Source: an uncultured Asticcacaulis sp. (GTDB lineage: Bacteria; Pseudomonadota; Alphaproteobacteria; Caulobacterales; Caulobacteraceae). From it: a stretch of DNA of 54,621 nucleotides. Both the position numbers and the translations under genes were made by a program. The stretch is taken from assembly GCA_936940865.1 (NCBI GenBank), contig CAKZJB010000037.1, positions 1 to 54,621 on the forward strand. The letters run 5' to 3'. How positions within the stretch are numbered: position 1 is the stretch's first letter; every line of letters begins with the position of its first letter. This document shows positions 6,001-25,919 of the stretch, piece by piece. A model generated the notes under the pieces. It was not told where the DNA came from and did no database searches. It was given only the letters and a program-made list of their open reading frames with translations.

Positions 6001-6012
6001 TTGTGATCACAG
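6001..6012. promoter_or_regulatory. GntR operator candidate, copy 1
   Basis: TTGTGATCACAG contains the perfect 10-base palindrome TGTGATCACA (6002-6011). It lies between the divergent aminotransferase (start 5936) and gntR (start 6058), where one bound dimer could control both. The same palindrome occurs at 7040-7049, 13074-13083, 18304-18313 and 25906-25915. Confidence 0.75.
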
Positions 6013-6057
6013 CGACGACCGGCAGACAAGAGGTCTTCGCTGGAAGGGCGGGCAAGA

Positions 6058-6768
6058 ATGAAGGTGGTTTCCCTGAAACCGGCAACCAATGACAACGCCA
6101 GCGCCCATGCGCAGGTCTACGAAGCGCTCAGCGAGGACCTCATCCAGGGGCAGATTCCTCCGCTGAAGCCGTTGTCGCTGCGCGGGATCGCGCAACGCTA
6201 CGGCGTGTCGCCCATGCCGGTGCGCGAGGCCGTGCGCCGGCTGATCGCCGAAAAGGCGCTGGAGTTGCAGGCCGAAAACAAGCGCCTGCGCGTGCCGCAC
6301 CTGACCGAACACCGCCTGAAGCAACTGACGATGGCGCGCTGCTGGGTCGAGCCGGAACTGGCGGCCATGGCGGCGCCGCGGATGGCGCGCGACGACATCA
6401 AACGCCTGCGGGACGATGATGCGACGCTCATGCGGGCTTTGAAAAGCGGTGACGTCTCGGCCTACATGCAGGCCAATCATGACTTCCATTTCACAATCTA
6501 TCGCGCCGCCGACGCCGACCTGCTGTGCGGCATGGCGCGGAGTTTATGGCTGCAAAGCGGCCCCTTCATGCGGGTCGTCTTCGGCCGGCTGGGCACGGTG
6601 CAACTGCCCAAGGACCATCACCAGGACATGATCGCGGCGTTCGAAGCCGGCAATGCCGATGCGGCGCGCGCTTCGATGGCCGAGGACATCGGTGAAGGCA
6701 TGAACCTGATGCTGGACGCGATCGGCGACCACGACCTGCCGCAGCCCAAACGGCGGGGCAGGGGTTAG
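6058..6768 (+). CDS. GntR family (FadR/FCD) transcriptional regulator
   Basis: The 236-residue protein has an N-terminal winged helix (about residues 15-80; LSLRGIAQRYGVSPMPVREAVRRL is the recognition region) and a C-terminal all-helical FCD effector domain (about 95-220), with the FCD landmark ANHDFHFTIYRAA. This is the layout of FadR-type repressors that bind a carboxylate or amine-derived ligand. It is placed in the middle of amine catabolism genes, and the same palindrome TGTGATCACA precedes its own gene and four other units of the locus. I infer that it represses them and itself; the ligand may be a gamma-glutamylated amine or GABA-like intermediate. Confidence 0.92.
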   Translation: MKVVSLKPATNDNASAHAQVYEALSEDLIQGQIPPLKPLSLRGIAQRYGVSPMPVREAVRRLIAEKALELQAENKRLRVPHLTEHRLKQLTMARCWVEPELAAMAAPRMARDDIKRLRDDDATLMRALKSGDVSAYMQANHDFHFTIYRAADADLLCGMARSLWLQSGPFMRVVFGRLGTVQLPKDHHQDMIAAFEAGNADAARASMAEDIGEGMNLMLDAIGDHDLPQPKRRGRG

Positions 6769-6778
6769 CGGCAACTTT

Positions 6779-6987
6779 CTTATACCTTCCCGCTGGGCGG
6801 GGAGGGTGAGCGTAGCCGAGGTAGGGCCTCGGCAAGCGCAAGACGAGCGAGCGAAGCGAGTGAGATGTGGTGGTGGGGGCGGAGAAGACGCGCATACCCA
6901 GCCTGTAAGCTCTACGCCCCCCCACCGTCATCGCTGTCGCATGCGCTCGCGCGCTGCCACCTCCCCCGCCTGGCGGGGGAGTATAAG
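6779..6987. repeat. inverted-repeat element in the gntR-puuC gap
   Basis: The ends are imperfect inverted copies: CTTATAC at 6779-6785 pairs with GTATAAG at 6981-6987, each followed inward by a GC-rich hairpin (6786-6805 and 6959-6980). The interior holds GAGATGTGGTGGTGGGG (6862-6878), also present at 2-18 and 10132-10148. No reading frame of note is present; it fills most of the 301-base gap between gntR and puuC. Confidence 0.65.
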
Positions 6988-7009
6988 CTCAAGAGCATAA
7001 TCCGACATA

Positions 7010-7039
7010 TTGACTTCGCACGTTCTGGCGGTGTCTAAT
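7010..7039 (+). promoter_or_regulatory. puuC-gabD promoter
   Basis: TTGACT (7010-7015) and TCTAAT (7034-7039) are 18 bases apart. The operator palindrome at 7039-7050 begins on the last base of the -10 box, the position expected for a repressor that blocks RNA polymerase. The start codon of puuC follows at 7070. Confidence 0.6.
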
Positions 7040-7050
7040 TGTGATCACAA
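7039..7050. promoter_or_regulatory. GntR operator candidate, copy 2
   Basis: The perfect 12-base palindrome TTGTGATCACAA stands 19 bases before the puuC start codon and abuts the predicted -10 box. It belongs to the five-copy set of the locus. Confidence 0.78.
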
Positions 7051-7069
7051 AGCGCTTAAGCAGGTGCCC

Positions 7070-8590
7070 ATGCCGATCTCCCCGCCGCAACTTCCCGCAG
7101 ATACGCTCGACGGCGTCCTGGCGTCGATCGCGAAACTCGACCTGCCGAAACTGGCGCTGATCGACGGCCAGGAGGTCGCGGCCCACACCGGCCGGACCTT
7201 CGACAACTTTTCGTCGCGCGACGGCACGCTCGTCAATGCCATCGCGGCCTGCGACAGCGCCGATGTCGACCATGCCGTAAAGGTGGCGCGCACGGCCTTC
7301 GAAGACGGGCGCTGGAGCCGACAGTCTCCGCGCGCCCGCAAGAAGGTTCTGCACAAACTGGCCGACCTGATGCAGGCCCATGCTGAGAACCTGGCGTTGC
7401 TGGAAAGCCTCGACACCGGAAAGCCGATCCGCGACGCGCGGGGATTCGACGTTCCCGCTTCCATCAACACCGTCCGCTATTACGCCGAAGCGATCGACAA
7501 GATCTATGGCGAGGTCGCGCCGACGCCGCACGACCGCCTGTCCTATGTGGTGCATGAACCCCTGGGCGTCGTCGGCGCCATCGTGCCGTGGAACTTCCCG
7601 CTGCATATGGCGATGTGGAAGGTGGCGCCGGCGCTGGCCATGGGGAATTCGGTGGTCCTGAAGCCCGCCGAGCTGTCGTCGATGACCGCGCTCTATACGG
7701 CCATGCTGGCGCTCGAAGCCGGCCTGCCGGCGGGCGTATGGAATGTCGTGACGGGGCTTGGCGCCGAGGCGGGCAACGCCTTGTCCCGTCATATGGACGT
7801 CGACATGATCGCCTTTACGGGATCGGGCGTCGTCGGGCGCCAGCTGATGCGCGCCTCGGCCGACTCGAACCTCAAGCGCGTGTCGCTGGAACTCGGCGGC
7901 AAGAGCCCGCAGATCGTCTTTGCCGACGCAGACAATCTCGACGCGGCAGCGTCGGCCGCCGCCTGGGGCGTCTTCTATAACCAGGGCCAGGTGTGCACGG
8001 CATCGTCACGCCTGCTTGTGGAAGCGTCGATCAAGGACGCGTTTGTCGAAAAGGTGACCGCCGCCGCCAAGGCCATCACGGTCGGCGATCCGTTCGACCC
8101 CGCGACGCAGTTCGGCGCCATGGTATCGGAGCGCCAGATGAACACGGCGCTCGACTATATCGAAAAGGGGCAGTCCGGCGGCGGGCGCCTGCTCTTGGGC
8201 GGCGAACGCATTCGCGGCGACTGCGGCGGCTACTATGTCGCGCCGTCCGTGCTCGACAATATCACGCCCGACAACACGCTGGCTCAGGAAGAGGTCTTCG
8301 GGCCGGTCCTGTCGGTCATGACTTTCAAGGATGAGGCCGAGGCCTTCCGCATCGCCAACGGCACGGTCTACGGTCTGGCGGCCGGCGCGTGGACGTCGAA
8401 CGTCAGCCGCGCCATGCGCGCGGCCCATGCGCTTAAAGCCGGGCTGGTGTGGATCAATGGCTGGGACGCCTGCGACATCACATCGCCCTTCGGCGGCGTG
8501 AAACAGTCGGGTTTCGGTCGCGATCGCAGCCTGCACGCCCTATATAAGTATGCCGACCTTAAGGCCATTTCGATAAGCTTCGAGCCCTGA
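7070..8590 (+). CDS. puuC: aldehyde dehydrogenase, PuuC-like
   Basis: The 506-residue NAD(P)+-dependent aldehyde dehydrogenase has the family core: VVGAIVPWNFPL, the nucleotide-binding FTGSGVVGRQL, the general base in LELGGKSPQIVF (about residue 270) and the nucleophile cysteine in NQGQVCTASSRL (about residue 304). The N-terminus (LALIDGQEVAAHTGRTFDNFSSRDGTLV) and overall layout match gamma-glutamyl-gamma-aminobutyraldehyde dehydrogenases, the third step of the Puu putrescine pathway. The ATG at 7070 is preferred; a longer frame from 7010 would run across the promoter and operator. gabD begins 2 bases after the stop. Confidence 0.87.
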   Translation: MPISPPQLPADTLDGVLASIAKLDLPKLALIDGQEVAAHTGRTFDNFSSRDGTLVNAIAACDSADVDHAVKVARTAFEDGRWSRQSPRARKKVLHKLADLMQAHAENLALLESLDTGKPIRDARGFDVPASINTVRYYAEAIDKIYGEVAPTPHDRLSYVVHEPLGVVGAIVPWNFPLHMAMWKVAPALAMGNSVVLKPAELSSMTALYTAMLALEAGLPAGVWNVVTGLGAEAGNALSRHMDVDMIAFTGSGVVGRQLMRASADSNLKRVSLELGGKSPQIVFADADNLDAAASAAAWGVFYNQGQVCTASSRLLVEASIKDAFVEKVTAAAKAITVGDPFDPATQFGAMVSERQMNTALDYIEKGQSGGGRLLLGGERIRGDCGGYYVAPSVLDNITPDNTLAQEEVFGPVLSVMTFKDEAEAFRIANGTVYGLAAGAWTSNVSRAMRAAHALKAGLVWINGWDACDITSPFGGVKQSGFGRDRSLHALYKYADLKAISISFEP

Positions 8591-8592
8591 TC

Positions 8593-10035
8593 ATGAAACT
8601 CACTTCGGCACAGATCGCCCTGCTGGGCGAAACCATTTCGCTTACGCCGCGCGCCGGCTGGTTTCCCGTCTATAATCCGGCCGATGGCGGTGTCCTCGCC
8701 TATGTGGAGGACGGTACGGCCGACGACACGCGCGCGGCAATCGCCGCCGCCGACGCAGCCTTTCCAGCCTGGTCGGGAAGGACCGCCAAGGACCGCTCAA
8801 TCATTCTGAAAAAATGGAATGATCTGGTCCTGAAGCACCAGGAAGACATGGCGCTGCTCGTCACGCTGGAGCAGGGGCGGCCGATCAGGGAAACGCGCGG
8901 CGAAGTCGCCTATGGCGCCAGCTTCATCGAATGGTTCGCCGAGGAGGCCAAGCGCGCCTATGGCCGCACCATCCCGGCGACCCTGCCCGGCAAGCACCTG
9001 CAGACCATCAAGCAGGCGATCGGCGTCTGCGCGGCGATCACGCCGTGGAACTTTCCGATATCCATGATCACGCGCAAGGTGTCGCCGGCGCTCGCCGCCG
9101 GCTGCACAGTTGTCATCAAGCCGTCGGAGGAGACGCCGCTGTCGGCGCTGGTGCTCTTGCAACTGGCGAAGCAGGCCGGCCTGCCCGACGGCGTGATCAA
9201 CGTCGTCAATTCCACAAAAGCGGCAGAGATCGGCGGCGTCATGACCTCCGATCCGCGCGTCAAGAAGCTGAGTTTTACCGGTTCGACCCCGGTCGGCAAG
9301 TTGCTCTACGCGCAGTGCGCGCCGACCATGAAGAAGCTGTCGATGGAACTCGGCGGCAATGCGCCGTTTCTCGTTTTCGATGACGCCGAGATCGATGCCG
9401 CGGTCGAAGGCGCCCTGGCGTCGAAATACCGTAATACGGGCCAGACCTGCGTCTGTGCCAACCGCATCCTGGTGCAATCGGGCATTTATGACAGCTTCGC
9501 CGCGCGCCTGACCGAACGCGTCAGGGCGATGAAGCTGGAAGAAGGCTGGAAGGAGGACGCCATTCTCGGCCCGCTGATCAACCAGAAGGCCGTCGACAAG
9601 GTCAGGCACCTGGTCGAGGACGCGGTGAAAAAGGGGGCGCACGTCGAACTGGGGGGCTATGCCCATAACCTGTTCTATGAAGGCACCGTGCTGACCAATG
9701 TCAGCCGCGACATGGAGCTGTTCTCGACCGAAATCTTCGGTCCCGTTGCTCCGCTCTTCCGTTTCGAGACGGAAGAGGAAGGGATTGCCATGGCCAACGA
9801 CACGCCGTTCGGCCTGGCGGCCTATGCCTATACGCGCGACATCGGCCGCGCCATGCGCGTGGCGGCAAAGCTGCAATACGGCATGGTCGGCATGAATGAC
9901 GGGCTGATCTCGACCGAGGTCACGCCATTCGGCGGCGTCAAGGAATCGGGTCTGGGCCGTGAAGGCGCGGCCGAGGGCTTGGACGAGTATTTGAGCGTCA
10001 AGTATATCTCGTACGGCGGGCTGGGGGCGATTTGA
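8593..10035 (+). CDS. gabD: succinate-semialdehyde dehydrogenase, GabD-like
   Basis: The 480-residue protein is a second aldehyde dehydrogenase with GVCAAITPWNFPISMITRK, FTGSTPVGKLL, the general base in MELGGNAPFLVFDDAEIDAA (about residue 254) and the catalytic cysteine in NTGQTCVCANRIL (about residue 288). These match the NAD(P)+-dependent succinate-semialdehyde dehydrogenases (GabD), which convert the product of GABA transamination to succinate. It lies 2 bases after puuC and so shares the GntR-controlled promoter. Glutarate-semialdehyde dehydrogenase activity is an alternative that cannot be excluded. Confidence 0.88.
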   Translation: MKLTSAQIALLGETISLTPRAGWFPVYNPADGGVLAYVEDGTADDTRAAIAAADAAFPAWSGRTAKDRSIILKKWNDLVLKHQEDMALLVTLEQGRPIRETRGEVAYGASFIEWFAEEAKRAYGRTIPATLPGKHLQTIKQAIGVCAAITPWNFPISMITRKVSPALAAGCTVVIKPSEETPLSALVLLQLAKQAGLPDGVINVVNSTKAAEIGGVMTSDPRVKKLSFTGSTPVGKLLYAQCAPTMKKLSMELGGNAPFLVFDDAEIDAAVEGALASKYRNTGQTCVCANRILVQSGIYDSFAARLTERVRAMKLEEGWKEDAILGPLINQKAVDKVRHLVEDAVKKGAHVELGGYAHNLFYEGTVLTNVSRDMELFSTEIFGPVAPLFRFETEEEGIAMANDTPFGLAAYAYTRDIGRAMRVAAKLQYGMVGMNDGLISTEVTPFGGVKESGLGREGAAEGLDEYLSVKYISYGGLGAI

Positions 10036-10273: not shown

Positions 10274-11617
10274 ATGACAGTGGCGGACTTTATTTCTGAA
10301 CAACGCGAATTGTTCGCCGCCGCCAATCCGATATCCCGGTCGTTGTCCGCTAAGGCGTCGGCATGGCGGTCGGGCGTGCCCATGCACTGGATGCGCGACT
10401 GGGCGACGCCATTTCCTATTTACGTGAATAATGCGCGTGGTGCGACGCTGACCGATGTCGACGGCCATGCCTATGACGACTTCTGCCTGGGCGACACGCC
10501 GTCGATGTTCGGCCATGCGCGGCCCGAGCTGGCCGCCGCCATGGCCGAACAGGCCGGGCAGGGTGTGGGCTTCATGCTGCCGACCGAAACGGCCAACACC
10601 GTCGGCATGCTGCTGGCGCAGAGGTTCGGTCTCCCGCAATGGCAGGTGGCGACGACGGCTTCGGACGCCAATCGCGCCGCCATCCGCTGGGCGCGGGCGG
10701 TCACGGGACGCTCCAAAATCCTGGTTTTCGACGGCTGCTATCACGGCATGGTCGAGGACTGTTTCGTAGCGCTGTACGATGGCAAGCCGGCCAATAAAAA
10801 GGGCCTGATCGGCCAGGTCCGCGACCAGACCGAAACGACAACCGTCATCCCGTTCAACGACATTCCGGCGCTCGAAGCCGCGTTGCAAACCGGTGAGATC
10901 GCCGCTGTCCTGGCCGAGCCCGTCATGACCAATTGCGGCATGATCCTGCCGCAGCCGGGGTTTCACCGAACTTTGCATGAATTGACAGCGCGACACGGTA
11001 CGCTGCTGGTCCTCGACGAGACCCATACCCTGTCGTCGGGTCCAGCCGGTTACTCCGGCGAACACGGTTTGCAACCCGACATGCTGGTTATCGGCAAGGC
11101 TATTGCCGGCGGCGTGCCGGCCGCCGTCTGGGGCGTCACAAGCGATCTGGCCGCGCGGATGAACGTCGCCGAAGCGCTCGCGGGGCCGGGGTCGAGCGGC
11201 ATCGGCACGACCCTGTCGGGCAACGCGCTCGCCATGCGCGCCATGCATGTCATGCTGACCGAGGTCATGACGGATGACGCCTATGCCCGGATGCTGGAAG
11301 GCGCCGAGACGCTGGTGGCGGGTCTGCGCGACGTCATCGATACCCATGACCTGCCGTGGTCGGTCGTTCATGTCGGGGCGCGCGCCGAACTGATCTTCGC
11401 ACCTCAGCCGCCGCATGACGCCGCCGCCATGCGCAAGGTCCTGGACCATCACCTGCTCGAAGCCTTCCACCTCTTCCTCATCAACCGCGGCGTATTGATT
11501 GCGCCGTTCCACAATATGATGCTTATTTCCCCGCACACCGATTCAGCGGCCATCCAGCGGCTGGCCGCGGCGGTCGGGGAGTTCGCCATCGCGCAACAGA
11601 CATTCCAACCGGTCTGA
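10274..11617 (+). CDS. class III aminotransferase, glutamate-1-semialdehyde-aminomutase-like
   Basis: The 447-residue PLP enzyme has a fold-type I class III pattern: ATTASDANRAAIRWARAVTG, FDGCYHGMVED, the PLP aspartate in LLVLDETHTLSSG (about residue 249) and the PLP lysine in VIGKAIAGG (about residue 275). It resembles glutamate-1-semialdehyde aminomutase relatives rather than GabT, and the usual NSGSEA is replaced by TTASDA. Its place between gabD and a gamma-glutamyl ligase points to amine or amino-acid transamination; the substrate is unknown. It relies on GGGAGG inside the preceding repeat element for translation. The next gene begins 20 bases downstream. Confidence 0.82.
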   Translation: MTVADFISEQRELFAAANPISRSLSAKASAWRSGVPMHWMRDWATPFPIYVNNARGATLTDVDGHAYDDFCLGDTPSMFGHARPELAAAMAEQAGQGVGFMLPTETANTVGMLLAQRFGLPQWQVATTASDANRAAIRWARAVTGRSKILVFDGCYHGMVEDCFVALYDGKPANKKGLIGQVRDQTETTTVIPFNDIPALEAALQTGEIAAVLAEPVMTNCGMILPQPGFHRTLHELTARHGTLLVLDETHTLSSGPAGYSGEHGLQPDMLVIGKAIAGGVPAAVWGVTSDLAARMNVAEALAGPGSSGIGTTLSGNALAMRAMHVMLTEVMTDDAYARMLEGAETLVAGLRDVIDTHDLPWSVVHVGARAELIFAPQPPHDAAAMRKVLDHHLLEAFHLFLINRGVLIAPFHNMMLISPHTDSAAIQRLAAAVGEFAIAQQTFQPV

Positions 11618-11637: not shown

Positions 11638-13032
11638 ATGAGCCTGCCGCCCCACCCGATGGTCGCCACGCCCGACGAAGCCCGCGCCTTCCTCGATGCG
11701 CATCCCCATATCCAGTATTTCGAGGTCTTCTTCACCTCCATGGCCGGTGTGCCGCGCGGCAAGCGCCTGCGCCGCCACGAGTTGCTCCCAATCTACGAAT
11801 ACGGCCGCTTCCTGCCGGGCTCGATCCTGGTGGTCGACACCCAGGGCGCCGATGTCGAGGAGACCGGCCTGGTGTGGGAAGACGGCGACGCCGACCGCGT
11901 CGCGCGCCCGGTCCCGGGGACGCTGGTGCCGGCGCCCTGGCTGGGCGACGACGTCGGCCAGGTCATGCTGTCGCTCTATGAGCTCGACGGCACGCCCAAC
12001 GATATCGATCCGCGCCATGTGCTGAAGCGTGTGCTCGACCGCTATGCAGCCGACGGCCTGACGCCGGTCGTGGCGTGCGAGCTGGAATACTACCTGGTCG
12101 ATATCGCGCGTGGCGTGAACGGCGAACTGGTGCCGGCATCAAGCTTCAACACCGCCGAGACGCCGCAGGGCATCCAGGTCTACGGTCTGCCCGAGATCGA
12201 AGCGCACGGCGCTTTTTTCCGCCAGTTGTGGGAGACGGCGGACGCGCAAGGCATCCCGCTGGAAGGGGCGATTTCGGAATTCGCGCCGGGCCAGGTCGAA
12301 CTGACGCTGAAGCACAAACCCGACGCCTTGCGGGCTGCCGACGACGCGGTGATGTACAAGCGCCTGGCCAAGGGCGTGGCGCTCAATCTCGGCATCGAGG
12401 CGACCTTCATGGCCAAGCCGTGGGCCGACCGCGCCGGATCGGGCTTCCACGTCCATATCTCGGTCGCCGACAAGGACGGAAAGAACCTTTGCGCCGCCGA
12501 CGATCCGTCGGGCTCGCCGCTGTTGCATCACATGATCGGGGGCATGAAGGACCACCTGGCCGACTGCATGGGAATTCTCGCGCCCGGCGCCAACAGCTTC
12601 AAGCGCTTCAAGGCCAATTCCTATGCGCCGGTCGGCCTGACCTGGGGCGTCAACAACCGCACGGTCTCCCTGCGCGTTACGGCGGGCCCGGCACACACGC
12701 GCCACGTCGAACACCGCGTGGCCGGCGCCGACGGCAATCCGTACCTGGTGCTGGCGGCGATCCTGGCCTCAGCGCACCACGGAATCACGCACAAGACAGA
12801 TCCCGGTCCGGCGGTCGTCGGCAACGGCTACGCGGCTGCGGCCGAGTCGGGCGCCGTCCTGCCGACCAACTGGTACGCGGCCGTGGATTATCTCGATAAA
12901 TCGCGAACCTTGCGGGACTATCTCGGCGACCGCTTCGTCGACATGTACGTTCGTGTCAAACGCACGGAACAGGCGCGTTTCTTCGAGGCCGTCGGCGAAC
13001 TGGATTACGAATGGTATCTCAGGAATGCGTGA
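11638..13032 (+). CDS. puuA: glutamine synthetase-type gamma-glutamyl-polyamine ligase (copy 1)
   Basis: The 464-residue protein is a class I glutamine-synthetase homologue of the PuuA/GlnA3 type, which ligates glutamate to an amine with ATP. Visible are the N-terminal FEVFFTSMAGVPRGKRLRR (GS beta-grasp), the metal-binding ELEYYLVD (about residue 145), EFAPGQVELTLKH, the ATP/metal histidines in GSGFHVHISV (about residue 270), and NRTVSLRVTAG and EHRVAGADGNPYL in the catalytic domain. Housekeeping GlnA features such as the adenylylation loop are not apparent. It follows the aminotransferase closely, without an operator of its own. A second paralogue is at 24350-25789. Confidence 0.87.
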   Translation: MSLPPHPMVATPDEARAFLDAHPHIQYFEVFFTSMAGVPRGKRLRRHELLPIYEYGRFLPGSILVVDTQGADVEETGLVWEDGDADRVARPVPGTLVPAPWLGDDVGQVMLSLYELDGTPNDIDPRHVLKRVLDRYAADGLTPVVACELEYYLVDIARGVNGELVPASSFNTAETPQGIQVYGLPEIEAHGAFFRQLWETADAQGIPLEGAISEFAPGQVELTLKHKPDALRAADDAVMYKRLAKGVALNLGIEATFMAKPWADRAGSGFHVHISVADKDGKNLCAADDPSGSPLLHHMIGGMKDHLADCMGILAPGANSFKRFKANSYAPVGLTWGVNNRTVSLRVTAGPAHTRHVEHRVAGADGNPYLVLAAILASAHHGITHKTDPGPAVVGNGYAAAAESGAVLPTNWYAAVDYLDKSRTLRDYLGDRFVDMYVRVKRTEQARFFEAVGELDYEWYLRNA

Positions 13033-13073
13033 ATTCAGGCCACTGTGCGTGGAAATCGAAAACTGTGTCTATC

Positions 13074-13083
13074 TGTGATCACA
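13074..13083. promoter_or_regulatory. GntR operator candidate, copy 3
   Basis: The palindrome TGTGATCACA lies 42 bases after the ligase stop codon and 102 bases before potF. A TTGACA (13092-13097) follows 8 bases later, but I find no convincing -10 box at the right spacing. The flanking bases are C and T, so the 12-base extension seen at copies 2, 4 and 5 is absent here. Confidence 0.7.
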
Positions 13084-13185
13084 TTTAGCGATTGACAAGG
13101 CCCGAAAGCCGTATTCCTCTTCGTTAACGATTTGTGTCGCGTGCCCCCCTTCGTCCAGCCACCCGGAACCAGCCAGGAGCCAGCC

Positions 13186-14307
13186 ATGAGTTCACGTACG
13201 TCCCGCCGTTCGCTTTTGACCGCCCTGGGCGCGGCCGCCGTCGGCATCAGCTTCGCCGGCCTCGAAGGCTGCACCAAGCCCGAAGGCCCCAAGGCCGGCG
13301 GCCCGGAAGAGCCCAAGCTCAACTTCTATAACTGGGACACCTATATCGGCGACACGACCCTGGCCGACTTCAAGAAGGCCTCGGGCATCGACGTCAAGAT
13401 GGACCTGTTTTCGACCAATGACGAGCTGTTCGCCAAGATGAAGGCGGGCAATGCCGGATACGATGTCATCGTGCCGTCGAACGACTTCGTGGCGCGGATG
13501 AGCCAGGCCGGGCTGCTGATGCCGCTGGATCACGCCAAGATCCCGAACATGAAGAACATCAACAAGGACTTCCTGAACCCGCCCTACGATCCGGGCCGCA
13601 AGTACTCGATGCCCTATACCTGGCTGTGCCTCGGCATCGGCTTCCGCAAGTCCAAGATGAAGGACATGGGCGGGACGATGACCCCGGATTCGTGGAAGTG
13701 GGTCTTCGATTCCGACCTCTATCACGGCAAGATCGCGCTGCTGTCGGAATCGGCCGACCTGATCCGCCTGTGCGCCAAGTATCTCGGTTACAGCCTCAAC
13801 AATATTCCGGATGAAGCCCTGCCCAAGATCGAGGCCATGCTGACCAAGCAGGTCAAGGCCGGCAACGTGCTCAAGTTCCATAACGACGACGGCCAGGACC
13901 TGCTGGCGCACAAGGAAGTCGATATCGTCATCGAGTACAATGGCGACATCGCCCAGAAGGCCAAGGACGATCCCGATCTCGACTTCGTCATCCCGAAGGA
14001 AGGCTCGGAACTGAATTCGGACACGCTGTGCATTCCGAACGGCGCGCCGCGTCCGGACAATGCGCACAAGTTCATCAACTTCATCCTGGACGGCCAGAAC
14101 GGCGCGGAAATCTCCAAGACCATCCTGTATCCGACGCCCAACGATGCCGCCCGGGCGCTGATGGACGACAGCTACAAGAACAACCACATGATCTTCCCGC
14201 CGGCGGAGGCCCTGGCCAAGTGCGAATACGGCCAGTTCCCAGGCGCCGAACGCGCGCAAAAGTACGAAGAGATCGTGACCCGCGTCAAAGCCGCCGCCGG
14301 CGCATAA
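13186..14307 (+). CDS. potF: polyamine ABC transporter substrate-binding lipoprotein, PotF/SpuD-like
   Basis: The 373-residue protein binds putrescine- or spermidine-type amines in the periplasm and delivers them to the PotHI permease. The N-terminus (SSRTSRRSLLTALGAAAVG) is a twin-arginine-type signal and is followed by LEGC at residues 24-27, a lipobox-like site, so a Tat-exported lipoprotein is likely. The mature part begins LNFYNWDTYIGDTTLADF, the hallmark of PotD/PotF proteins, with GYDVIVPSNDFVARM. The ATG at 13186 is chosen for its CAGGAG Shine-Dalgarno and because the signal peptide starts there. It heads a four-gene transporter operon behind operator copy 3. Confidence 0.92.
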   Translation: MSSRTSRRSLLTALGAAAVGISFAGLEGCTKPEGPKAGGPEEPKLNFYNWDTYIGDTTLADFKKASGIDVKMDLFSTNDELFAKMKAGNAGYDVIVPSNDFVARMSQAGLLMPLDHAKIPNMKNINKDFLNPPYDPGRKYSMPYTWLCLGIGFRKSKMKDMGGTMTPDSWKWVFDSDLYHGKIALLSESADLIRLCAKYLGYSLNNIPDEALPKIEAMLTKQVKAGNVLKFHNDDGQDLLAHKEVDIVIEYNGDIAQKAKDDPDLDFVIPKEGSELNSDTLCIPNGAPRPDNAHKFINFILDGQNGAEISKTILYPTPNDAARALMDDSYKNNHMIFPPAEALAKCEYGQFPGAERAQKYEEIVTRVKAAAGA

Positions 14308-16121: not shown

Positions 16122-16129
16122 GACCCACC

Positions 16130-18308: not shown

Positions 18309-18314
18309 TCACAA
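18303..18314. promoter_or_regulatory. GntR operator candidate, copy 4
   Basis: TTGTGATCACAA overlaps the TGA stop codon of puuD (18306-18308). It is followed by TTGACT (18318-18323) and, 17 bases on, GACATT (18341-18346), a weak promoter for the spuC-like gene starting at 18478. Confidence 0.75.
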
Positions 18315-18360
18315 TATTTGACTTTCGGCCCGGTTTGGCCGACATTTGACGTAACAACTC

Positions 18361-18416: not shown

Positions 18417-18477
18417 TGGCCTTTGTCACGTCCTCCTCATGTATCTGCTGAGCGCACCCCGAACAGAGGCTTACGCC

Positions 18478-19884
18478 ATGACCATTCCCGTTCAAAAGCC
18501 GATCCGCAACTACGATGTCGACGCCCTGCGCCAGCTCGACATGGCGCACCACCTGCCGGCCCAGACCGACTACCAGCTCCAGCACAAGCTGGGCGGATCT
18601 CGCATCATCACGCGGGCCGAAGGCTGCACCATCACCGATGCGGATGGCGTAAGCCTGCTCGACGGCATGGCCGGGCTGTGGTGCGTCAATGTCGGCTACG
18701 GCCGCGAGGAACTGGCCCGCGTCGCCTATGAGCAGATGCTGGAACTGCCGTACTACAACACCTTCTTCAAGACGGCGACGCCGCCCCCGGTCAAGCTGGC
18801 GGCGAGGATCGCCGAGAAGATGCAGATCGGCAATCCCGACCTGACGCACGTTTTCTTCAACTCGTCGGGCTCGGAAGCCAACGACACCATCTTCCGTCTG
18901 GTGCGGACCTACTGGGATCTGGCCGGTCAGCCGAAGCGCAAAATCTTCATCAGCCGCAAGAACGCTTACCACGGCTCGACCGTGGCTGGGGCCAGCCTGG
19001 GCGGCATGAGCTTCATGCATGTCCAGGGCGACCTGCCGATCCCCGGCATCGAGCACGTCGATCAGCCCTACCTCTTCGGCGAGGCCTTTGGCGAGGATCC
19101 CGAAACCTTTGCGGACCGCATGGTCAAGTCGATCGAGGACCGTATCCTGAAGGTCGGACCGGAAAACGTCGCGGCCTTCATCGGCGAGCCGGTGCAAGGG
19201 GCGGGCGGCGTCATCATCCCGCCGGCGGGCTACTGGAAAAAGGTCGAGGCCGTGTGCCGCAAATACGGCATCCTGCTGATCTGCGATGAGGTCATCTGCG
19301 GTTTCGGGCGCCTGGGCGAATGGTTCGGCCACCAGCATTACGGCATAAAGCCGGATCTGATCGCGATGGCCAAGGGCCTGTCATCGGGCTACCTGCCGAT
19401 TTCGGCGGTCGGCGTGTCGAAGACCATCGTCGATACCCTGCTGGAAAAGGGCGGCGACTTCGTTCACGGCTACACCTATTCCGGCCACCCGACCTGTGCG
19501 GCCGTGGCGCTCGCCAATATCGAAATCATGGAAAACGAAGGCCTGATCGATCGTACGCGCGATGTCACCGGGCCATATCTGGCCAAGGCCCTGAAGCGGC
19601 TCGACACCCATCCGCTGGTCGGCGAGGCGCGCAGCCTGGGTCTGATCGGCGCCGTGGAGATCGTCGCCGAAAAGGGTACGAACAAGCGTTTTACGGGCAA
19701 GGAAGGCGTTGCCGGACCAACGGTTCGCGACATCTGCATCAAGAACGGGCTGATGGTGCGCGGCATCCGCGACAGCATCGTCATGTGTCCGCCGCTGATC
19801 ATCACCGAGGCCGAGATCGACCGGCTGGTCGACATCATCGAGCAGTCGCTGACCGAAGCCGAACCGGTGTTGCGCGCCTTGTAA
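18478..19884 (+). CDS. spuC: putrescine:pyruvate aminotransferase, SpuC-like
   Basis: The 468-residue class III aminotransferase shows DMAHHLPAQTDYQL near the N-terminus, MAGLWCVNVGYGREEL, FNSSGSEANDT, AYHGSTVAGASLGG, the PLP aspartate in LLICDEVICGFGRLG (about residue 266) and the PLP lysine in MAKGLSSGYLPISAV (about residue 299). These features are characteristic of the SpuC group that transaminates putrescine or related diamines with pyruvate, a route parallel to gamma-glutamylation. The ATG at 18478 is preferred over an upstream ATG at 18439 because the family N-terminus begins here. It lies behind operator copy 4. Confidence 0.9.
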   Translation: MTIPVQKPIRNYDVDALRQLDMAHHLPAQTDYQLQHKLGGSRIITRAEGCTITDADGVSLLDGMAGLWCVNVGYGREELARVAYEQMLELPYYNTFFKTATPPPVKLAARIAEKMQIGNPDLTHVFFNSSGSEANDTIFRLVRTYWDLAGQPKRKIFISRKNAYHGSTVAGASLGGMSFMHVQGDLPIPGIEHVDQPYLFGEAFGEDPETFADRMVKSIEDRILKVGPENVAAFIGEPVQGAGGVIIPPAGYWKKVEAVCRKYGILLICDEVICGFGRLGEWFGHQHYGIKPDLIAMAKGLSSGYLPISAVGVSKTIVDTLLEKGGDFVHGYTYSGHPTCAAVALANIEIMENEGLIDRTRDVTGPYLAKALKRLDTHPLVGEARSLGLIGAVEIVAEKGTNKRFTGKEGVAGPTVRDICIKNGLMVRGIRDSIVMCPPLIITEAEIDRLVDIIEQSLTEAEPVLRAL

Positions 19885-19903: not shown

Positions 19904-20644
19904 ATGGCTGCGGTCATGAAAACCGAAGTCAGTTGGACCTTTCTCGGCCTTGTCGCCGTCTGGCTCGTCTCAGGCCTGGGGCTGGCGAGCTATCCCCATT
20001 ATGCCGGCGTCGAGACCTTCGTCTTCGTGCTGCTCGGCTGGATCATCAGCCTGTGCCTGCATGAATATGCCCACGCCGCCACCGCCTCGGCCTTCGGTGA
20101 CACGTCGATCGCCGGCAGCGGCTATCTGACGCTCGATCCGCGCCACTATGTCTCCGGGGCGCACAGCCTGATCCTGCCGGTCCTGGCAGTGATTTTCGGC
20201 GGCATCGCACTTCCCGGCGGCGCGGTGATGATCCGCAACGACCTGATCCGAAAGCGCTGGCAGCAATCGCTGGTGGCGCTTTCAGGGCCGTTCGCCACGC
20301 TTGTCTGCACGGCCGCCGCCTATGCCGGCGCCCAATATGTCGGCGAAGGCCTGCTCAGCGACGCCCTGATCCTGCTGACCTTTTTCGAACTGATGGCCTT
20401 CGTCCTTAATATCCTGCCGGTGCCGGGGCTCGACGGTTTCGCCGCCCTGCGTCCCTGGCTGCCGAAGGCGATCGGCAAGGCGATCCCGCCGCAGGTCGGG
20501 GGGCTGATCATGGTCGGCGGGCTGATCGCCGTCTTCTTCTACGGCTATCACATCATCGTCCCGATCATGCGCGTGATCGCGGACGCGACGGGGCTGGATC
20601 TTCACCCCGTCGGCCGCGCCATGGACCGGTTCCATTTCTGGTAA
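19904..20644 (+). CDS. site-2 protease-like M50 membrane metalloprotease
   Basis: The 246-residue protein has about six hydrophobic segments. The zinc motif HEYAH (HExxH) is in the second helix (about residues 50-54), and NILPVPGLDG (about 174-183) supplies the third zinc ligand as in S2P-type rhomboid-independent proteases (canonical NLLPxPPLDG). It belongs to the short S2P group without PDZ domain, whose substrates are mostly unknown. Starts at 19904 or 19916 (ATG both). It is 19 bases after the spuC-like gene and convergent with the next gene, so it may be read through from spuC, but a role in amine metabolism is not implied. Confidence 0.85.
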   Translation: MAAVMKTEVSWTFLGLVAVWLVSGLGLASYPHYAGVETFVFVLLGWIISLCLHEYAHAATASAFGDTSIAGSGYLTLDPRHYVSGAHSLILPVLAVIFGGIALPGGAVMIRNDLIRKRWQQSLVALSGPFATLVCTAAAYAGAQYVGEGLLSDALILLTFFELMAFVLNILPVPGLDGFAALRPWLPKAIGKAIPPQVGGLIMVGGLIAVFFYGYHIIVPIMRVIADATGLDLHPVGRAMDRFHFW

Positions 20645-20647: not shown

Positions 20648-21676
20648 CTACTTCTGGATAATGACCCCGTACCAGCCGAGGCCCTGATAGGTTTCGTAGC
20701 CTGGCGTGCGGTGAAAGGCGATCAACTGTCCGGCGGCGTCGACATAGTGGCCCGATGCCGCGCCGCCGGTGATCAGGTGAATGCGCTCGGTCAGAATGCC
20801 CTTGCCGTCCGAGGCGGCGATAACCAGGCCCGTCGAGTCGACCAGCAGGGCGCGCGTCCGCAGTCTTTCGTCCTCGGACAGGCGCACCCCTTCGGTGATC
20901 GCCGCAGCCTGGGGCGCCCAGTCGAAATGGATGCCCAGCACGCCGATCAGTTCGCCGTCGGCCCGGCCGCCGCGCCGCACACCGGTCGCATAGGTCGCGA
21001 TCTGTGAATGGCGCAGCAGGGGCTCGGTGACGATATCGGCCACGGCGAATTCTGTACCGCTGCGCAAGGCTGCGGCGCGCTTGAACCAGGGCCGGTCGCC
21101 GACATTGGTGCCCATGACGCCGTAACGGTCCGGCCGGCCATTGGCGATGACCCGGCCTTCCAGGTCGCACAGCCACAGATCGAGATAGACGGTGTAGGAG
21201 TCGAGGATGACACCCAGGCGCTCGCAGGCATGCTGGCGGCGTTCGGGCGTGGGGGCATCGGCCTGGTCCACCACGGCGGCGTCGGTCGCCCACCAGCGCA
21301 CATCGCACGTCCGTTCATACAGGTTGCGGTCGATCAGTTCGACGGCGTTGAGCGCAAGGTCGGTAAAGCGCACGCCCTGCGACTGCGCCGCCATGTCCTG
21401 GGTCAGGCCATCGAGCTTGATGATCTCATGGCCCAGATCGCGCGCCAGATCCTCGACCTCGCCCGAGATCGAACGGACCTCATCGGCGACCACCGAAAAG
21501 CCCGCGCCCTTGTCGCCGGCATGCTTGGCTTCGATCAAGGCATTGAGGGCCAGGATGCGCAGCTTGCCCGTCACCGCGCGGATATCGCGGACCTTGGCGC
21601 TGGTTACGGTCTTGGCGCGAGTGGTCTGGGCGATGATGTCGGCCAGCGACACGGCCGTGCGTTCTGCGGATGGCAT
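20648..21676 (-). CDS. soluble MCP-hairpin/Cache sensor protein (paralogue A)
   Basis: The 342-residue protein has no transmembrane segment. Residues about 31-75 carry the conserved hairpin tip of methyl-accepting chemotaxis proteins (ILALNALIEAKHAGDKGAGF followed by VVADEVR). Residues about 105-342 look like a double-Cache/PDC sensor (YLDLWLCDLEGRVIANGRPD, IATYATGV, VLGIHFDW, LLVDSTGLVIAASDGKGIL). The order is reversed compared with ordinary chemoreceptors, and only a short piece of the signalling coiled coil is present. The ATG at 21676 was chosen; the frame extends to 21724 without family character. A close paralogue lies just upstream on the same strand. Function unknown; a cytoplasmic ligand-gated partner of chemoreceptors or of CheA/CheW is an inference. 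Confidence 0.82.
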   Translation of the reverse strand: MPSAERTAVSLADIIAQTTRAKTVTSAKVRDIRAVTGKLRILALNALIEAKHAGDKGAGFSVVADEVRSISGEVEDLARDLGHEIIKLDGLTQDMAAQSQGVRFTDLALNAVELIDRNLYERTCDVRWWATDAAVVDQADAPTPERRQHACERLGVILDSYTVYLDLWLCDLEGRVIANGRPDRYGVMGTNVGDRPWFKRAAALRSGTEFAVADIVTEPLLRHSQIATYATGVRRGGRADGELIGVLGIHFDWAPQAAAITEGVRLSEDERLRTRALLVDSTGLVIAASDGKGILTERIHLITGGAASGHYVDAAGQLIAFHRTPGYETYQGLGWYGVIIQK

Positions 21677-21896
21677 GATTTTACCCTTGCTGCGTTGCGG
21701 TATGGCGCGACCCTCGGGGGGCAAGGGTTAATGCAGGGTAAAATTTTCCGCGCTGCAAACCATTGCAATGCGAGCCGGGCGCAGCCTTCACAACCACTGT
21801 TACGCCTTTACCACGCTTGCTTATGCCGTGAAACGAATTTGGTTTCCATTGCAATTATATGCGGTGCGCAAAAAGGCCCGGGATCAGTCTGGACGA

Positions 21897-22922
21897 TCAG
21901 CCCTGGACGATCACCCCGTACCAGCCCAGACCTTGATAGGTTTCGTAGCCCGGCGTGCGGTGGAAAGCGACCAGTCGTCCCGACGCGTCGTGATAGCTGC
22001 CTGAGGCGCGGCCGCCGGTGCGTATCTGGATGCGTTCATTGAGGATGCCGTGGTCGTCGGATGCCGCGATGACGCGTCCCGCCGAATCGACCAGCAGGGC
22101 CCGTGTCGTTTCGCGCTCGGCGTCGGACAGGCGCAGGCCTTGCATGATGGCCATGGCCTGGGGCTGCCAGTCGAAATGGACGCCCAGCACGCCCAGAAGC
22201 CGGCCATTGGCGTCGCCGCCTTCGCGCACGCCCGTGGCGTAGGTCGCGACCTGCGCGTCCTTCAGCAGCGGCTCGGCGCGGATATCCGCCGCGGTGAAGT
22301 CGTCGCCCGTGGCCAGCGATCGCGCCTGCTGGAACCAGGCCTCAGACGCGACGCTCTTGCCGGCGGCGGCGTAGGCGTCCGGGCGGCCATTGGCGATGAT
22401 GCGGCCGTCCAGGTCGCACAGCCACAGATCGAGATAGACGGTGTAGGCGTTCAGGATCACGCCCAGGCGGCGCGAGGCATGGCTGCTGTGGCTTGAGGAG
22501 GGCGCGGCTGCCGCCTCGACCACGGCCGTGTCGGTCGCCCACCAGCGCACGTCGCAGGTGCGCTCATAAAGGTTGCGGTCGATCAGCTCGATGGCGTTGA
22601 GCGCCAGGTCGATCAGGCGCGCGCCCTGGCTTTGCGCCGCCATGTCGCGTGTCAGCTGCTCCAGGGCGGCGATTTCGGTGTTCAACTCGTCGGCCATCAG
22701 TTTGGAGATTTGCTCGACCTGCGTCGAGATCTGGCGGACCTCGTCGGCGACGACCGCGAAGCCCGCACCCATGTCGCCGGCGCGCTTGGCCTCGATCAGT
22801 GCGTTGAGCGCCAGGATGCGCAGCATGTTGGTGATGCCGGTGATGTCGCGCAGGCGGCCCGTGGTGACGGATTTCGCCTTCGCGGTGTGGGCCACGATAT
22901 CGCGGATGCTGACAGCCTGCAT
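21897..22922 (-). CDS. soluble MCP-hairpin/Cache sensor protein (paralogue B)
   Basis: The 341-residue protein has the same domain order as its neighbour: an MCP hairpin (ILALNALIEAKRAGDMGAGF then AVVADEVRQI, about residues 35-68) followed by a Cache-type sensor with the same landmark strings (IDRNLYERTCDVRWWATD, TVYLDLWLCDLDGRIIANGR, TPGYETYQGLGWYGVIVQ). The paralogues also share long near-identical DNA stretches, for example around 21169-21200 and 22418-22449, so the duplication is fairly recent or maintained by conversion. The 220-base gap before paralogue A has no other gene and may hold its promoter. Confidence 0.82.
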   Translation of the reverse strand: MQAVSIRDIVAHTAKAKSVTTGRLRDITGITNMLRILALNALIEAKRAGDMGAGFAVVADEVRQISTQVEQISKLMADELNTEIAALEQLTRDMAAQSQGARLIDLALNAIELIDRNLYERTCDVRWWATDTAVVEAAAAPSSSHSSHASRRLGVILNAYTVYLDLWLCDLDGRIIANGRPDAYAAAGKSVASEAWFQQARSLATGDDFTAADIRAEPLLKDAQVATYATGVREGGDANGRLLGVLGVHFDWQPQAMAIMQGLRLSDAERETTRALLVDSAGRVIAASDDHGILNERIQIRTGGRASGSYHDASGRLVAFHRTPGYETYQGLGWYGVIVQG

Positions 22923-23072
22923 TCATTCTCCCGGGGTTTTCCCGAACATTTTGTATACTTTATTGGCGGGAGAATGGTTAATCGAACCTGAATTGTGCGA
23001 TTATTGTCACGTAATGTTGCGCGTTGTTTCAGCTATATGATGACGTATGAAACTGCATAACGCGGTTCCGAA

Positions 23073-24353
23073 TCACAATCTGTCGCGCAAGGCATAGTAG
23101 CTGAGGCCCGCGACCATGGCCGGCCAGCGCAGCAGGCGGCCGCCGAAAAAGGCCGGGGCCGGCAGGCGCGACAAAAGCTCGATATCGCGATCGTCGCCGG
23201 TGATGGCGCGCTCTAGAAGCTTGCCGAAATAGGGCGCCAGCACCACGCCCTGGCCGCTATAGCCGGCGCTGACCACGACGTTGCGCGACAGGCGCCGCAC
23301 GAACGGGGCGCGGCTGAGCGTGATGGCCAGGGTTCCGCCCCAGGCGTGGGTGACGGCGACGTCCGACAGCTGCGGATAAATTTTCAGCATGTTGCGGCGG
23401 ACCATGCCGGCGATATCTTTCGGGAACCACGGCGTGTAGTTTTCGCCGCCGCCGAACAGCAGGCGATTGTCAGGCGTTTTTCGCCAGTAGTTCACCACGA
23501 AGCGTGAGTCGGCCGCCGCCACGTCGCGCGGCAGGATGGCCGGGTCGTTCAGCGGCTCGGTCACCAGGATGAAGTTGTTGATCGGCATGACGCAGGCGTC
23601 GACCGTGTCGTCCAGCCCTTCCATATAGCCGTTGCCGCAAAGCAGGACCGTATTGCACCGCAGACGGCCGTGCGCGGTGTGCAGGATCGGCCCTGATTCC
23701 GCCGCTTCGATGCGCGAAACGTTCGAATGCTCGAACAGGATTGCGCCGGCTGTTTCCGCCGCACGCGCCATGCCGAGCGCCAGTTTCAGCGGATGCAGAT
23801 GTCCGCCGCCTCGATCGAACAGCCCGCCGTGATAGACATCGGTGCCCAGCTCCGTGGCGACTTCGGCGGCGTCGAGGAGCGAAACCTTGTCATAGCCGTA
23901 CTGCCGGCGAACGAAGTCGGCATAGGCCTGGTCGTCGTCGGCGAACCGCGGCTTGTGCCAGGCGTGGATGAGGCCCGGCCTAAGGTCGCAGTCGATACCA
24001 TGCTGCGCGACAAGGCCGTGGAGATGCGTCTTGGCGTCTTCGGCCATGTCCCACAATTGCCGCGCGGCGTCGGCGCCCAGTTGCGTCGCCAGCGTTTCCG
24101 GATCGATGCGCTGGCCCGTATGGATCTGCCCGCCGTTGCGGCCCGACGCGCCCGAACCCATGTCGGCGCCTTCCAGCACGGCGACGCGGATGCCTTTTGC
24201 CGCCAGTTCCAGCGCGGCGCCGAGGCCCGTAAAGCCGCCGCCGACGATGCCGACCTCGACAGTTACGTCACCTTCAAGGCGCGGGCGAACGGGCGGCGTA
24301 TCGACCGTCGCCCGGTACCACGAGCCTGCGGGATGGCCGGTATTCTGCATCAC
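23073..24353 (-). CDS. puuB: FAD-dependent gamma-glutamylputrescine oxidase, PuuB-like
   Basis: The 426-residue flavoprotein of the DAO/GlpO family begins with the Tyr-rich PuuB-type N-terminus (GSWYRATVDTPPVRPRLEGD) and the Rossmann motif VEVGIVGGGFTGLGAALEL (about residues 31-49), then the GASGRNGGQIH segment that contacts FAD. PuuB oxidises gamma-glutamyl-putrescine to the aldehyde, releasing ammonia and H2O2. GYSGQGVVLAPYFGKLL near the C-terminus matches. The start at 24353 overlaps the stop of the upstream ligase gene, so the two enzymes of consecutive steps are translationally coupled. Confidence 0.9.
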   Translation of the reverse strand: MMQNTGHPAGSWYRATVDTPPVRPRLEGDVTVEVGIVGGGFTGLGAALELAAKGIRVAVLEGADMGSGASGRNGGQIHTGQRIDPETLATQLGADAARQLWDMAEDAKTHLHGLVAQHGIDCDLRPGLIHAWHKPRFADDDQAYADFVRRQYGYDKVSLLDAAEVATELGTDVYHGGLFDRGGGHLHPLKLALGMARAAETAGAILFEHSNVSRIEAAESGPILHTAHGRLRCNTVLLCGNGYMEGLDDTVDACVMPINNFILVTEPLNDPAILPRDVAAADSRFVVNYWRKTPDNRLLFGGGENYTPWFPKDIAGMVRRNMLKIYPQLSDVAVTHAWGGTLAITLSRAPFVRRLSRNVVVSAGYSGQGVVLAPYFGKLLERAITGDDRDIELLSRLPAPAFFGGRLLRWPAMVAGLSYYALRDRL

Positions 24354-25789
24354 ACATTAAGAAGCAAAAACTCGCGTTCCCACGGGCTGATGGTCTGCAT
24401 GAAGGTCTCGTATTCATAGAGCTTCACGCGCGTATAGGCCGTGCAGAACTGCGGGCCCATCATGTCGATGATCGGCTGGGCGCGTTCCAGCTTGATGATC
24501 GCCTGGACCAGCGAGTAGGGCAGGTCGCCCTGCGGCAGGGTCGAGGCGTCGCTGTCGACCGGATCGGACGGCTTCAGCTTGTCGATCATGCCGAGATAAC
24601 CGGAGGCCAGCACGGCGGCGATGGCCAGGTACGGATTGGCGTCGGACGACGGGATGCGGTTTTCCAGGCGCCGGTTGTCGCTGTCGGCCGGCGGCACGCG
24701 CAGGCCGGCCGTGCGGTTGTCGTAACCCCACTGCGTGTTGACCGGCGCGCCCGAACCCTTGGCCAGGCGGCGGTAGGAATTGACGTAGGGCGCCAGCAGC
24801 GACGTGATGGCCGGCATGTATTTCTGCTGGCCCGCGATGAAGGCGAAGAAGGCGTCGGTCGGCTGGCCGGTTTCGGGATCGGAAAAGATGTTGTGGCCCG
24901 TCTTGCGGTCGATGATCGACTGGTGGATGTGCATGGCCGAACCCGGCTCCTGCGCCATCGGCTTGGCCATGAAGGTGGCGTAGATGTCGTGCTCCAGCGC
25001 CGTTTCCTTGATGGTGCGCTTGAACATCATCACCTGGTCGGCCAGTTCCAGCGGGTTGCCGTGGCGCAGGTTGATTTCCATCTGCGCCACGCCGGATTCG
25101 TGGATCAGGGTGTCGATCTCCAGCCCCTGCGCCTCGCAGTATTCGTACATGTCCTCGAACAGGGCGTCGAACTCGTTGACCGCCGAGATCGAATAGCCCT
25201 GGCGGCCGGTTTCGGGGCGGCCCGAACGCCCGACAGGCGGCTTCAGCGGATAGTCGGGGTCGATATTCTTTTCGACGAGATAGAATTCGAGCTCAGGCGC
25301 GATCACCGGCTCCCAGCCCTTGGCTTCGTAGTAGCCGAGCACGCGGCGCAGCACCTGGCGCGGGCTTTCCTCCACGGGCCGTCCGTCGGGGTGGAAGGCG
25401 TCGTGGATGACCTGGGCGGTCGGATCGTGCGCCCACGGAACGACCGACAGGGTATTGAAATCGGGCCTGAGGAAGATGTCGGTGTCGGACTGAACCGTGC
25501 CGACCACGCCTTCCAGGTCGGGATAGTCCCCGGTGATGGTCTGGTAGAAGACGGCCAGCGGCAAATTCATATAGGGCGCGTTGAGGAATTTCTTGGCGGG
25601 CATGATCTTGCCGCGCGCCACGCCGGCCAGGTCCGGGATCAGGCACTCGATCTCCTCTATGCCCTGGCTCGACAGCCATTCGCGCGCATCGTCGAGCGAG
25701 GACACGCCGCGCTTGGAAAAGGCCTTTTTGCGCTTGGCCTTGACCTTCATCTGGGATTTCATCTGGGACTTCATGTTGTCGTGCGACAT
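24350..25789 (-). CDS. puuA: glutamine synthetase-type gamma-glutamylputrescine ligase (copy 2)
   Basis: The 479-residue protein is a PuuA-type ligase: IEEIECLIPDLAGVARGKIM at the N-terminal beta-grasp, ELEFYLVEKNIDPDYPLKPP, EINLRHGNPLELADQVMMFK, the catalytic histidines in GSAMHIHQSI (about residue 285), NTQWGYDNRTAGLRVP and ENRIPSSDANPYL. It is coupled to PuuB, which makes putrescine the likely substrate. The N-terminus carries a very basic leader (MKSQMKSQMKVKAKRKKAF) containing a 4-residue tandem repeat; a later ATG could be the real start. Operator copy 5 is 113 bases upstream. Confidence 0.9.
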   Translation of the reverse strand: MSHDNMKSQMKSQMKVKAKRKKAFSKRGVSSLDDAREWLSSQGIEEIECLIPDLAGVARGKIMPAKKFLNAPYMNLPLAVFYQTITGDYPDLEGVVGTVQSDTDIFLRPDFNTLSVVPWAHDPTAQVIHDAFHPDGRPVEESPRQVLRRVLGYYEAKGWEPVIAPELEFYLVEKNIDPDYPLKPPVGRSGRPETGRQGYSISAVNEFDALFEDMYEYCEAQGLEIDTLIHESGVAQMEINLRHGNPLELADQVMMFKRTIKETALEHDIYATFMAKPMAQEPGSAMHIHQSIIDRKTGHNIFSDPETGQPTDAFFAFIAGQQKYMPAITSLLAPYVNSYRRLAKGSGAPVNTQWGYDNRTAGLRVPPADSDNRRLENRIPSSDANPYLAIAAVLASGYLGMIDKLKPSDPVDSDASTLPQGDLPYSLVQAIIKLERAQPIIDMMGPQFCTAYTRVKLYEYETFMQTISPWEREFLLLNV

Positions 25790-25901
25790 GGGAATCGCCT
25801 GCCGGATTGGGTGTTCGACCGATCATGACACCGGCGGGAGCCCAATCCAAGGCTCCATCGTCAACGGCCAGCCCGGAAAGGGCACCGGAAGAGTGTCGTG
25901 A

Positions 25902-25919
25902 ATATTGTGATCACAATAT
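25902..25919. promoter_or_regulatory. GntR operator candidate, copy 5 (best palindrome)
   Basis: ATATTGTGATCACAATAT is an 18-base perfect palindrome, the longest of the five copies. It lies 113 bases before the copy-2 ligase on the minus strand and 91 bases before the divergent trmH-type gene, but control of the ligase-oxidase pair is the natural reading. Confidence 0.8.

Follow-up and report, generated by a model that had tools for sequence, protein, structure and literature searches.

In Escherichia coli, polyamines are broken down through the Puu pathway, which is controlled by PuuR, a regulator of the XRE-cupin type. Among regulators of the GntR superfamily, operators of the FadR subfamily typically have a GT-AC spacing of 3 nt, and of 2 nt in some groups, according to PMC4494728. 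Metal-dependent sensors with an FCD domain bind their metal with three side chains, which are either three histidines or, as in DgoR, Asp-His-His. Here we analysed a window of 54,621 bases from an uncultured Asticcacaulis sp. (contig CAKZJB010000037.1 of assembly GCA_936940865.1), whose genes, judged by homology, are a set for polyamine uptake and degradation, and in which the 10-bp palindrome TGTGATCACA recurs. We consider it very probable that this palindrome serves as operator for a GntR/FCD regulator, a dimer whose gene lies at 6058-6768 and which would control polyamine uptake and breakdown. What we show are the sites, how they are distributed, their tie to gntR within the family, their retention at unlinked loci, the predicted fold and the invariance of pocket residues, whereas binding, ligand, metal, promoters and the sign of regulation are inferred.

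A preliminary description of this DNA had reported five copies of the palindrome and none further in 54 kb. An exact count across the whole window agrees, with TGTGATCACA starting at 6002, 7040, 13074, 18304 and 25906 and nowhere else. Shuffling the window 100 times gave a mean of 0.03 copies and never as many as five, and 29 further palindromes equal to it in length and base composition have no copy there; one GC-rich palindrome, GGCGGCCGCC, also occurs five times. From left to right the perfect palindrome extends over 10, 12, 10, 14 and 18 bp, lengths that bear out the reported 12-base form at three sites and 18-base form at 25902-25919. Operator 1 (TTGTGATCACAG, 6001-6012) lies between the divergent genes aptA and gntR, operator 2 (TTGTGATCACAA, 7039-7050) at the -10/+1 region of a predicted puuC promoter, operator 3 (CTGTGATCACAT, 13073-13084) upstream of potF, operator 4 (the 14-bp palindrome, 18302-18315) upstream of spuC, and operator 5 (the 18-bp palindrome, 25902-25919) between a puuA-like gene on the minus strand and a SpoU-type methylase gene on the plus strand. 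The counterpart of operator 5 in relatives stands before the gene for GS2, the puuA-type glutamine synthetase homologue. Four of the five sites are intergenic and the one at 18304 runs across the end of the puuD-like gene, including its stop codon, again as described.

What ties the palindrome to the regulator is its recurrence ahead of gntR itself. An orthologue of gntR was found in all 25 genomes of the genus, at 62-74% identity to the window gene in the other 24, and the 250 bp ahead of gntR contain the degenerate motif TGnGATCnCA at 35 of 41 loci (22 of 25 in the genus and 13 of 16 elsewhere, the latter picked from the better gntR matches), against 0 of 41 for each of eleven permuted palindromes. 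The exact TGTGATCACA stands between aptA and gntR at 21 of the 24 other genus loci and, with one mismatch, at 2 more; at the remaining one (L092), aptA was not found within the fetched stretch. The 35 include five distant gntR loci, with GntR identities of 43-48%, which carry variants such as TGGGATCGCA. Four genomes (G005, G014, G018 and G021) have aptA-gntR on its own, separated from both the puuC-gabD-transaminase-GS1-pot-puuD-spuC cluster and the GS2-puuB pair, which lie 1.1-1.3 Mb off (G005, G018, G021) or on other contigs (G014). These relocated loci keep their sites, before puuC, GS1, potF and GS2 in four of four genomes and before spuC in three of four. The motif upstream of gntR, its enrichment in the genus and the sites at unlinked loci strongly support the GntR/FCD protein as the regulator, as had been proposed.

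Another way to view the palindrome is through the genes that it precedes across the family. All 25 Asticcacaulis genomes carry the exact 12-mer TTGTGATCACAA (83 copies, 1-5 per genome) and have the 10-mer ahead of puuC; of the 224 genomes from elsewhere in the family, 11 contain the 12-mer (12 copies). We examined 79 of the 83 genus copies for the gene behind them, leaving out by choice hits on the SpoU gene that neighbours GS2. Seventy precede genes of polyamine, gamma-aminobutyrate (GABA) or alanine catabolism, namely spuC (23), puuC (20), GS2 (14), gabT (9), aptA with gntR (3) and the alanine dehydrogenase gene ald (1), which lends comparative support to the earlier reading of a polyamine regulon. 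Four more stand at a pair formed by a TonB receptor gene and an asparaginase-type gene, and five, including the TonB site of the source genome, have no queried gene behind them; the copies on G001:C27, G003:C2 (within a reading frame), G009:C9 and G012:C29 are without explanation. The queries for puuC, spuC, GS2, aptA and gntR were taken from the window; those for gabT, TonB, asparaginase and ald were added after these genes had been seen beside sites, so that this part of the tally is partly circular. Related genomes are not independent of one another, and loci L012-L017, which are the same contigs as in six genus genomes, were counted once. The reversed-pattern control of the genome searches is weak because it contains CTAG.

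The preliminary description had proposed a count over the whole genome, and had taken many copies outside promoters as a result that would speak against it. In the 5.07-Mb source genome (5,073,473 bases in 245 contigs) the 10-mer TGTGATCACA has 8 copies and the exact 12-mer 5, the latter preceding puuC, spuC, the puuA-like gene, gabT and a TonB receptor gene, with four one-mismatch 12-mers on contigs C90, C101, C164 and C210. The three copies of the 10-mer beyond the window precede gabT, the TonB receptor gene and a semialdehyde-type dehydrogenase gene. The first (C221) lies 35 bp ahead of the 4-aminobutyrate transaminase gene gabT (TIGR00700, 565.6 bits, cut-off 506.65). The second (C6) lies 114 bp ahead of the ATG of a TonB-dependent receptor, which we treat as a candidate target only, since among the relatives compared no counterpart above 34% identity was seen beside a site. 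The third (C127) falls within the end of a preceding coding gene; a chance match inside that gene was considered and set aside, the site being 136 bp before the gene for a CoA-acylating dehydrogenase of the methylmalonate-semialdehyde type (TIGR01722). The 10-mer also occurs near this dehydrogenase gene in G004, G005, G018, G019 and G023, and on that basis we count it as a likely, but not proven, target of the regulon. A scripted upstream check found the site at three of six such loci (source genome, G004 and G023), and the other three were probably missed since there the site coincides with the estimated start of the gene. From these comparisons the regulon looks wider than first stated: it takes in gabT, and outer-membrane receptors and a beta-alanine arm probably belong to it as well.

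GntR, the protein proposed to recognise the operator, has an N-terminal winged helix (PF00392, 53.7 bits, cut-off 27) and a C-terminal FCD domain (PF07729, 80.4 bits, cut-off 24.3). Its structure model has a confidence (predicted local distance difference test, pLDDT) of 88.4 and a helical C-terminal part, and the best structural matches of the model are GntR/FCD proteins, with an McbR-like fold. Four of its residues do not vary among the 31 orthologues compared (N140, H144, H188 and D210), and the last three of these have aligned counterparts in 3c7j (Ps5454).

The gntR gene (6058-6768, plus strand) is not in the middle of the set, as had been described, but at its left end, between sites 1 and 2. 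Divergent from it is aptA, for an omega-aminotransferase of the AptA type (4629-5936, minus strand; NF052567, 745 bits, cut-off 500). Besides the targets originally named, the cluster holds three genes on the plus strand: a class-III transaminase of the PRK07046 subfamily (10274-11617; NF005453, 680.6 bits, cut-off 425), GS1, a glutamine-synthetase-like candidate gamma-glutamylpolyamine synthetase (11638-13032; PF00120, with 197.5 bits for GGputSyn, under the cut-off of 650), and a candidate gamma-glutamyl-GABA hydrolase of the PuuD type (17532-18308; PF07722). The other plus-strand members are a puuC-type aldehyde dehydrogenase gene (7070-8590; PF00171, best NCBIfam model PuuC at 572 bits, under its cut-off of 850), for which ATG 7070 is the likely start and corrects an earlier reading, a gabD-type succinate-semialdehyde dehydrogenase gene (8593-10035; TIGR01780, 638.8 bits, just under the cut-off of 646.35), a potF-type gene for a polyamine-binding protein (13132-14307; solute-binding protein families, PotF and PotD models under cut-off), permease genes of the potH type (14329-15252) and the potI type (15249-16121), both PF00528, a potG-type ATPase gene (16148-17248; PF00005 and PF08402, its start chosen within an open reading frame at 15551-17248), and a spuC-type aminotransferase gene (18439-19884; NF005682, 695 bits, cut-off 510). 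On the minus strand follow a puuB-type FAD oxidoreductase gene (23073-24353; PF01266, best NCBIfam model under cut-off) and GS2 (24350-25789; PF00120, GGputSyn 206 bits, under cut-off). The names PuuC, PotF and PuuB and those of both synthetases denote homology under curated cut-offs, and GabD falls marginally short.

Between and beside these genes lie several others. An M50-type peptidase gene follows spuC (19904-20644) and stays beside it in several relatives. Between spuC/M50 and puuB are two adjoining minus-strand genes (20648-22922) with weak matches to the methyl-accepting chemotaxis protein signalling (MCP-signal) and dCache families; dCache homologues adjoin puuB in many relatives, and for this reason the two may encode amine sensors. 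To the right of the regulon, a polysaccharide-type gene group spans 26835-38623 (phosphomannomutase, nucleotidyltransferase, epimerase, acyltransferase, flippase and Wzy-type ligase). In four related genomes, the 12-mer stands between a TonB receptor gene and a gene with S51-peptidase and asparaginase-2 matches (L142 1977-6839, L169, L173 and L198; Pfam on L142 only), which suggests peptides of the isoaspartyl or cyanophycin type as a linked nutrient. Locus L109, from the distant genus g7, has four copies of TGTGATCACA in 20 kb (4373, 6949, 11314 and 18562), with a 44%-identical gntR alongside; the neighbours of these copies are a TonB receptor gene, a SnoaL-type gene and a BBP2-porin gene, puuD-spuC, and a gene of unassigned function. 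The palindrome also lies by an alanine dehydrogenase gene at L145 (4777), L033 (1501), L165 (3436) and perhaps, going by gene sizes only, L150 (4377), a link that possibly reflects the recycling of alanine from pyruvate-dependent transaminases. A 10-mer site at L149 gave a weak TonB_C match and no pathway link in the scans made.

The position of the palindrome relative to promoter-like sequences gives some indication of how the regulator might act. The predicted puuC promoter of the window (7010-7039, plus strand; TTGACT at 7010-7015, TCTAAT at 7034-7039) adjoins operator 2. We counted predicted promoters at sites with the exact palindrome, taking identical copies once. All 32 distinct puuC sites, and 2 of 5 gabT sites, have a TTGAC that begins 26-31 bp ahead of the palindrome, a distance that puts the puuC operator on or next to -10/+1. 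This layout fits repression by occlusion. At potF, TTGAC begins exactly 8 bp past the palindrome in all 15 distinct palindrome-bearing sites (in the window, TTGACA 8 bp past the 10-mer of operator 3), and at spuC it begins 3-4 bp past in 10 of 17 (TTGACT, 4 bp past the 10-mer of operator 4). No TTGAC was found in the stretches scanned at the aptA, GS2 and GS1 sites and at the other 7 of 17 spuC sites.

Taken together, we propose that without inducer the dimer would sit on TTGTGATCACAA, covering the -10/+1 region of puuC and of some gabT genes; the site between gntR and aptA suggests that gntR is also autoregulated. A carboxylate-bearing intermediate, such as gamma-glutamylputrescine, GABA or beta-alanine, would enter the FCD pocket, perhaps via a metal ion, and the inducer-bound dimer would then release the DNA and allow the genes to be expressed. 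The breakdown routes so controlled would lead to succinate through the GABA arm and probably to acetyl-CoA through the beta-alanine arm. At potF and spuC, where the site is just upstream of a -35-like TTGAC, the regulator may repress or activate.

Several observations weigh against this proposal. Compared with the 12-mer, the 10-mer has lower specificity: each genus genome contains 4-16 copies, and several of its sites showed no pathway link in the scans made (L147, L148 and L026, with no family or an unrelated one). TGnGATCnCA is missing from the 250 bp upstream of gntR at 6 of 41 loci (L087, L088, L092, L098, L100 and L110), and the site is missing at potF in nine genus genomes (L082-L085, L087-L089, L092 and L191). 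At other-genus loci, the 260 bp upstream contain no site in any of 10 cases for potF, in any of 10 for spuC, and in 10 of 11 for GS2. The third metal-ligand position of GntR is an aspartate, not a histidine. The potF and spuC sites, upstream of a -35-like box, are a poor fit to simple promoter occlusion, and in G005 the relocated cluster has an HxlR-type regulator gene in its vicinity, while a further FCD gene is found close to GS2.

The last of these could mean that the operator of the polyamine regulon is read by another transcription factor, with gntR merely one of its targets, and in the same genome a 10-mer stands between an alanine dehydrogenase gene and a divergent AsnC-type regulator gene. 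However, the motif precedes gntR at 35 of 41 loci with the permuted controls at zero, the aptA-gntR pair retains its site where the catabolic cluster lies elsewhere, and 0 of 13 window-flank proteins scanned, a part of the open reading frames there, is a transcription factor by Pfam; we regard another reader as quite improbable. That the copies arose by chance, belong to a repeated element or are contracted sites of the CRP type (their TGTGA/TCACA half-sites show a resemblance) we hold to be scarcely credible. Five of the 79 genus 12-mers without a labelled gene behind, one of them within a reading frame, would be in its favour, but only 0.03 copies are expected in the window and the 224 non-genus genomes have 12 copies of the 12-mer between them. 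Moreover, CRP half-sites are separated by a 6-bp spacer, compared with 0 here, and the sites are placed before one pathway. In sequences with the exact palindrome, identity between species more than 10 bp away is 0.29-0.39 on the 5' side and 0.30-0.36 on the 3' side, with potF at 0.69; in that comparison only the flank figures are informative. A chance or repeat origin was rejected on the shuffles, the palindrome controls, the enrichment in the genus and the gene placement.

If GntR is indeed the reader, the two recurrent operator positions mean that pure repression is not settled. A regulator that represses at -10/+1 (puuC and some gabT) and activates from upstream of -35 (potF and spuC) would account for both geometries, and CitO is an example of an activator with an FCD domain. 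On the other hand, the promoters are predicted rather than mapped, and no TTGAC is seen in the stretches scanned at 7 of 17 spuC sites or at the counted aptA, GS2 and GS1 sites. Repression from around -45 is possible too. Such dual action is possible but less likely than not. Improbable is the fuller version, in which the regulator has an altered pocket (H/H/D) that responds to an omega-amino acid shared by the two arms, GABA or beta-alanine, and both represses and activates throughout the Caulobacteraceae. Were it true, puuC, gabT and gntR would be repressed and potF and spuC activated, and polyamine use would be coordinated from the TonB receptor to succinate and acetyl-CoA via an unusual GATC-centred operator.

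Returning to the GntR/FCD operator that we favour, how does it compare with described systems? The window GntR scores 84.7 bits with the PRK11414 model, which we take to be the McbR family, far under the cut-off of 225, and by our reading of the alignment the residues of E. coli McbR/YncC (4p9f) that stand opposite H144, H188 and D210 are Arg, Tyr and Ile. The metal ligands of Ps5454 are given as H148, H192 and H214 (PMC7674646); on our own mapping, which has an offset of three residues, H144 and H188 align with metal ligands and the third ligand, H214, is the invariant D210 here. N140 lies four residues before H144, as D146 does before H150 in DgoR, and an Asn stands in place of the DgoR Asp. 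The GT-AC spacing in TTGTGATCACAA is 4 nt, which differs from that of the FadR-subfamily class as given in PMC4494728, and the core in the wider family is TGnGATCnCA. The main text of that paper mentions neither polyamine nor putrescine nor GABA, and no such regulon appears in the passages found in it and in PMC5343134. In searches of papers, as distinct from databases such as RegPrecise, no polyamine GntR regulon was found for Caulobacter, Asticcacaulis or the Alphaproteobacteria. None of the papers that contain the string TGTGATCACA concerns a bacterial operator, judged by title, and one of them is on bisphenol F breakdown by a bacterium; locus names gave no match.

In terms of chemistry, the route matches the E. 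coli Puu pathway by homology, with gamma-glutamylation, oxidation, aldehyde dehydrogenase, hydrolase, GABA transaminase and succinate-semialdehyde dehydrogenase. To the E. coli set are added AptA and, in some species, the methylmalonate-semialdehyde-type dehydrogenase, alanine dehydrogenase and TonB receptors. Candidate outer-membrane receptors and a beta-alanine branch are pointed to as parts of polyamine use. No XRE-cupin (PuuR) domain was found among the window proteins scanned, a search confined to the window, and the regulator proposed in its place is a GntR/FCD protein. The type of system, a local catabolic regulon under a GntR/FCD protein, is familiar, but for this combination of regulator and gene set we found no prior description; the regulon itself is well supported by comparison of sequences. 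It provides a regulator, an operator and a list of targets that can be tested for polyamine catabolism in the Caulobacteraceae, and because the operator recurs at two positions, it offers a clean way to examine whether a single FCD protein can both repress and activate.

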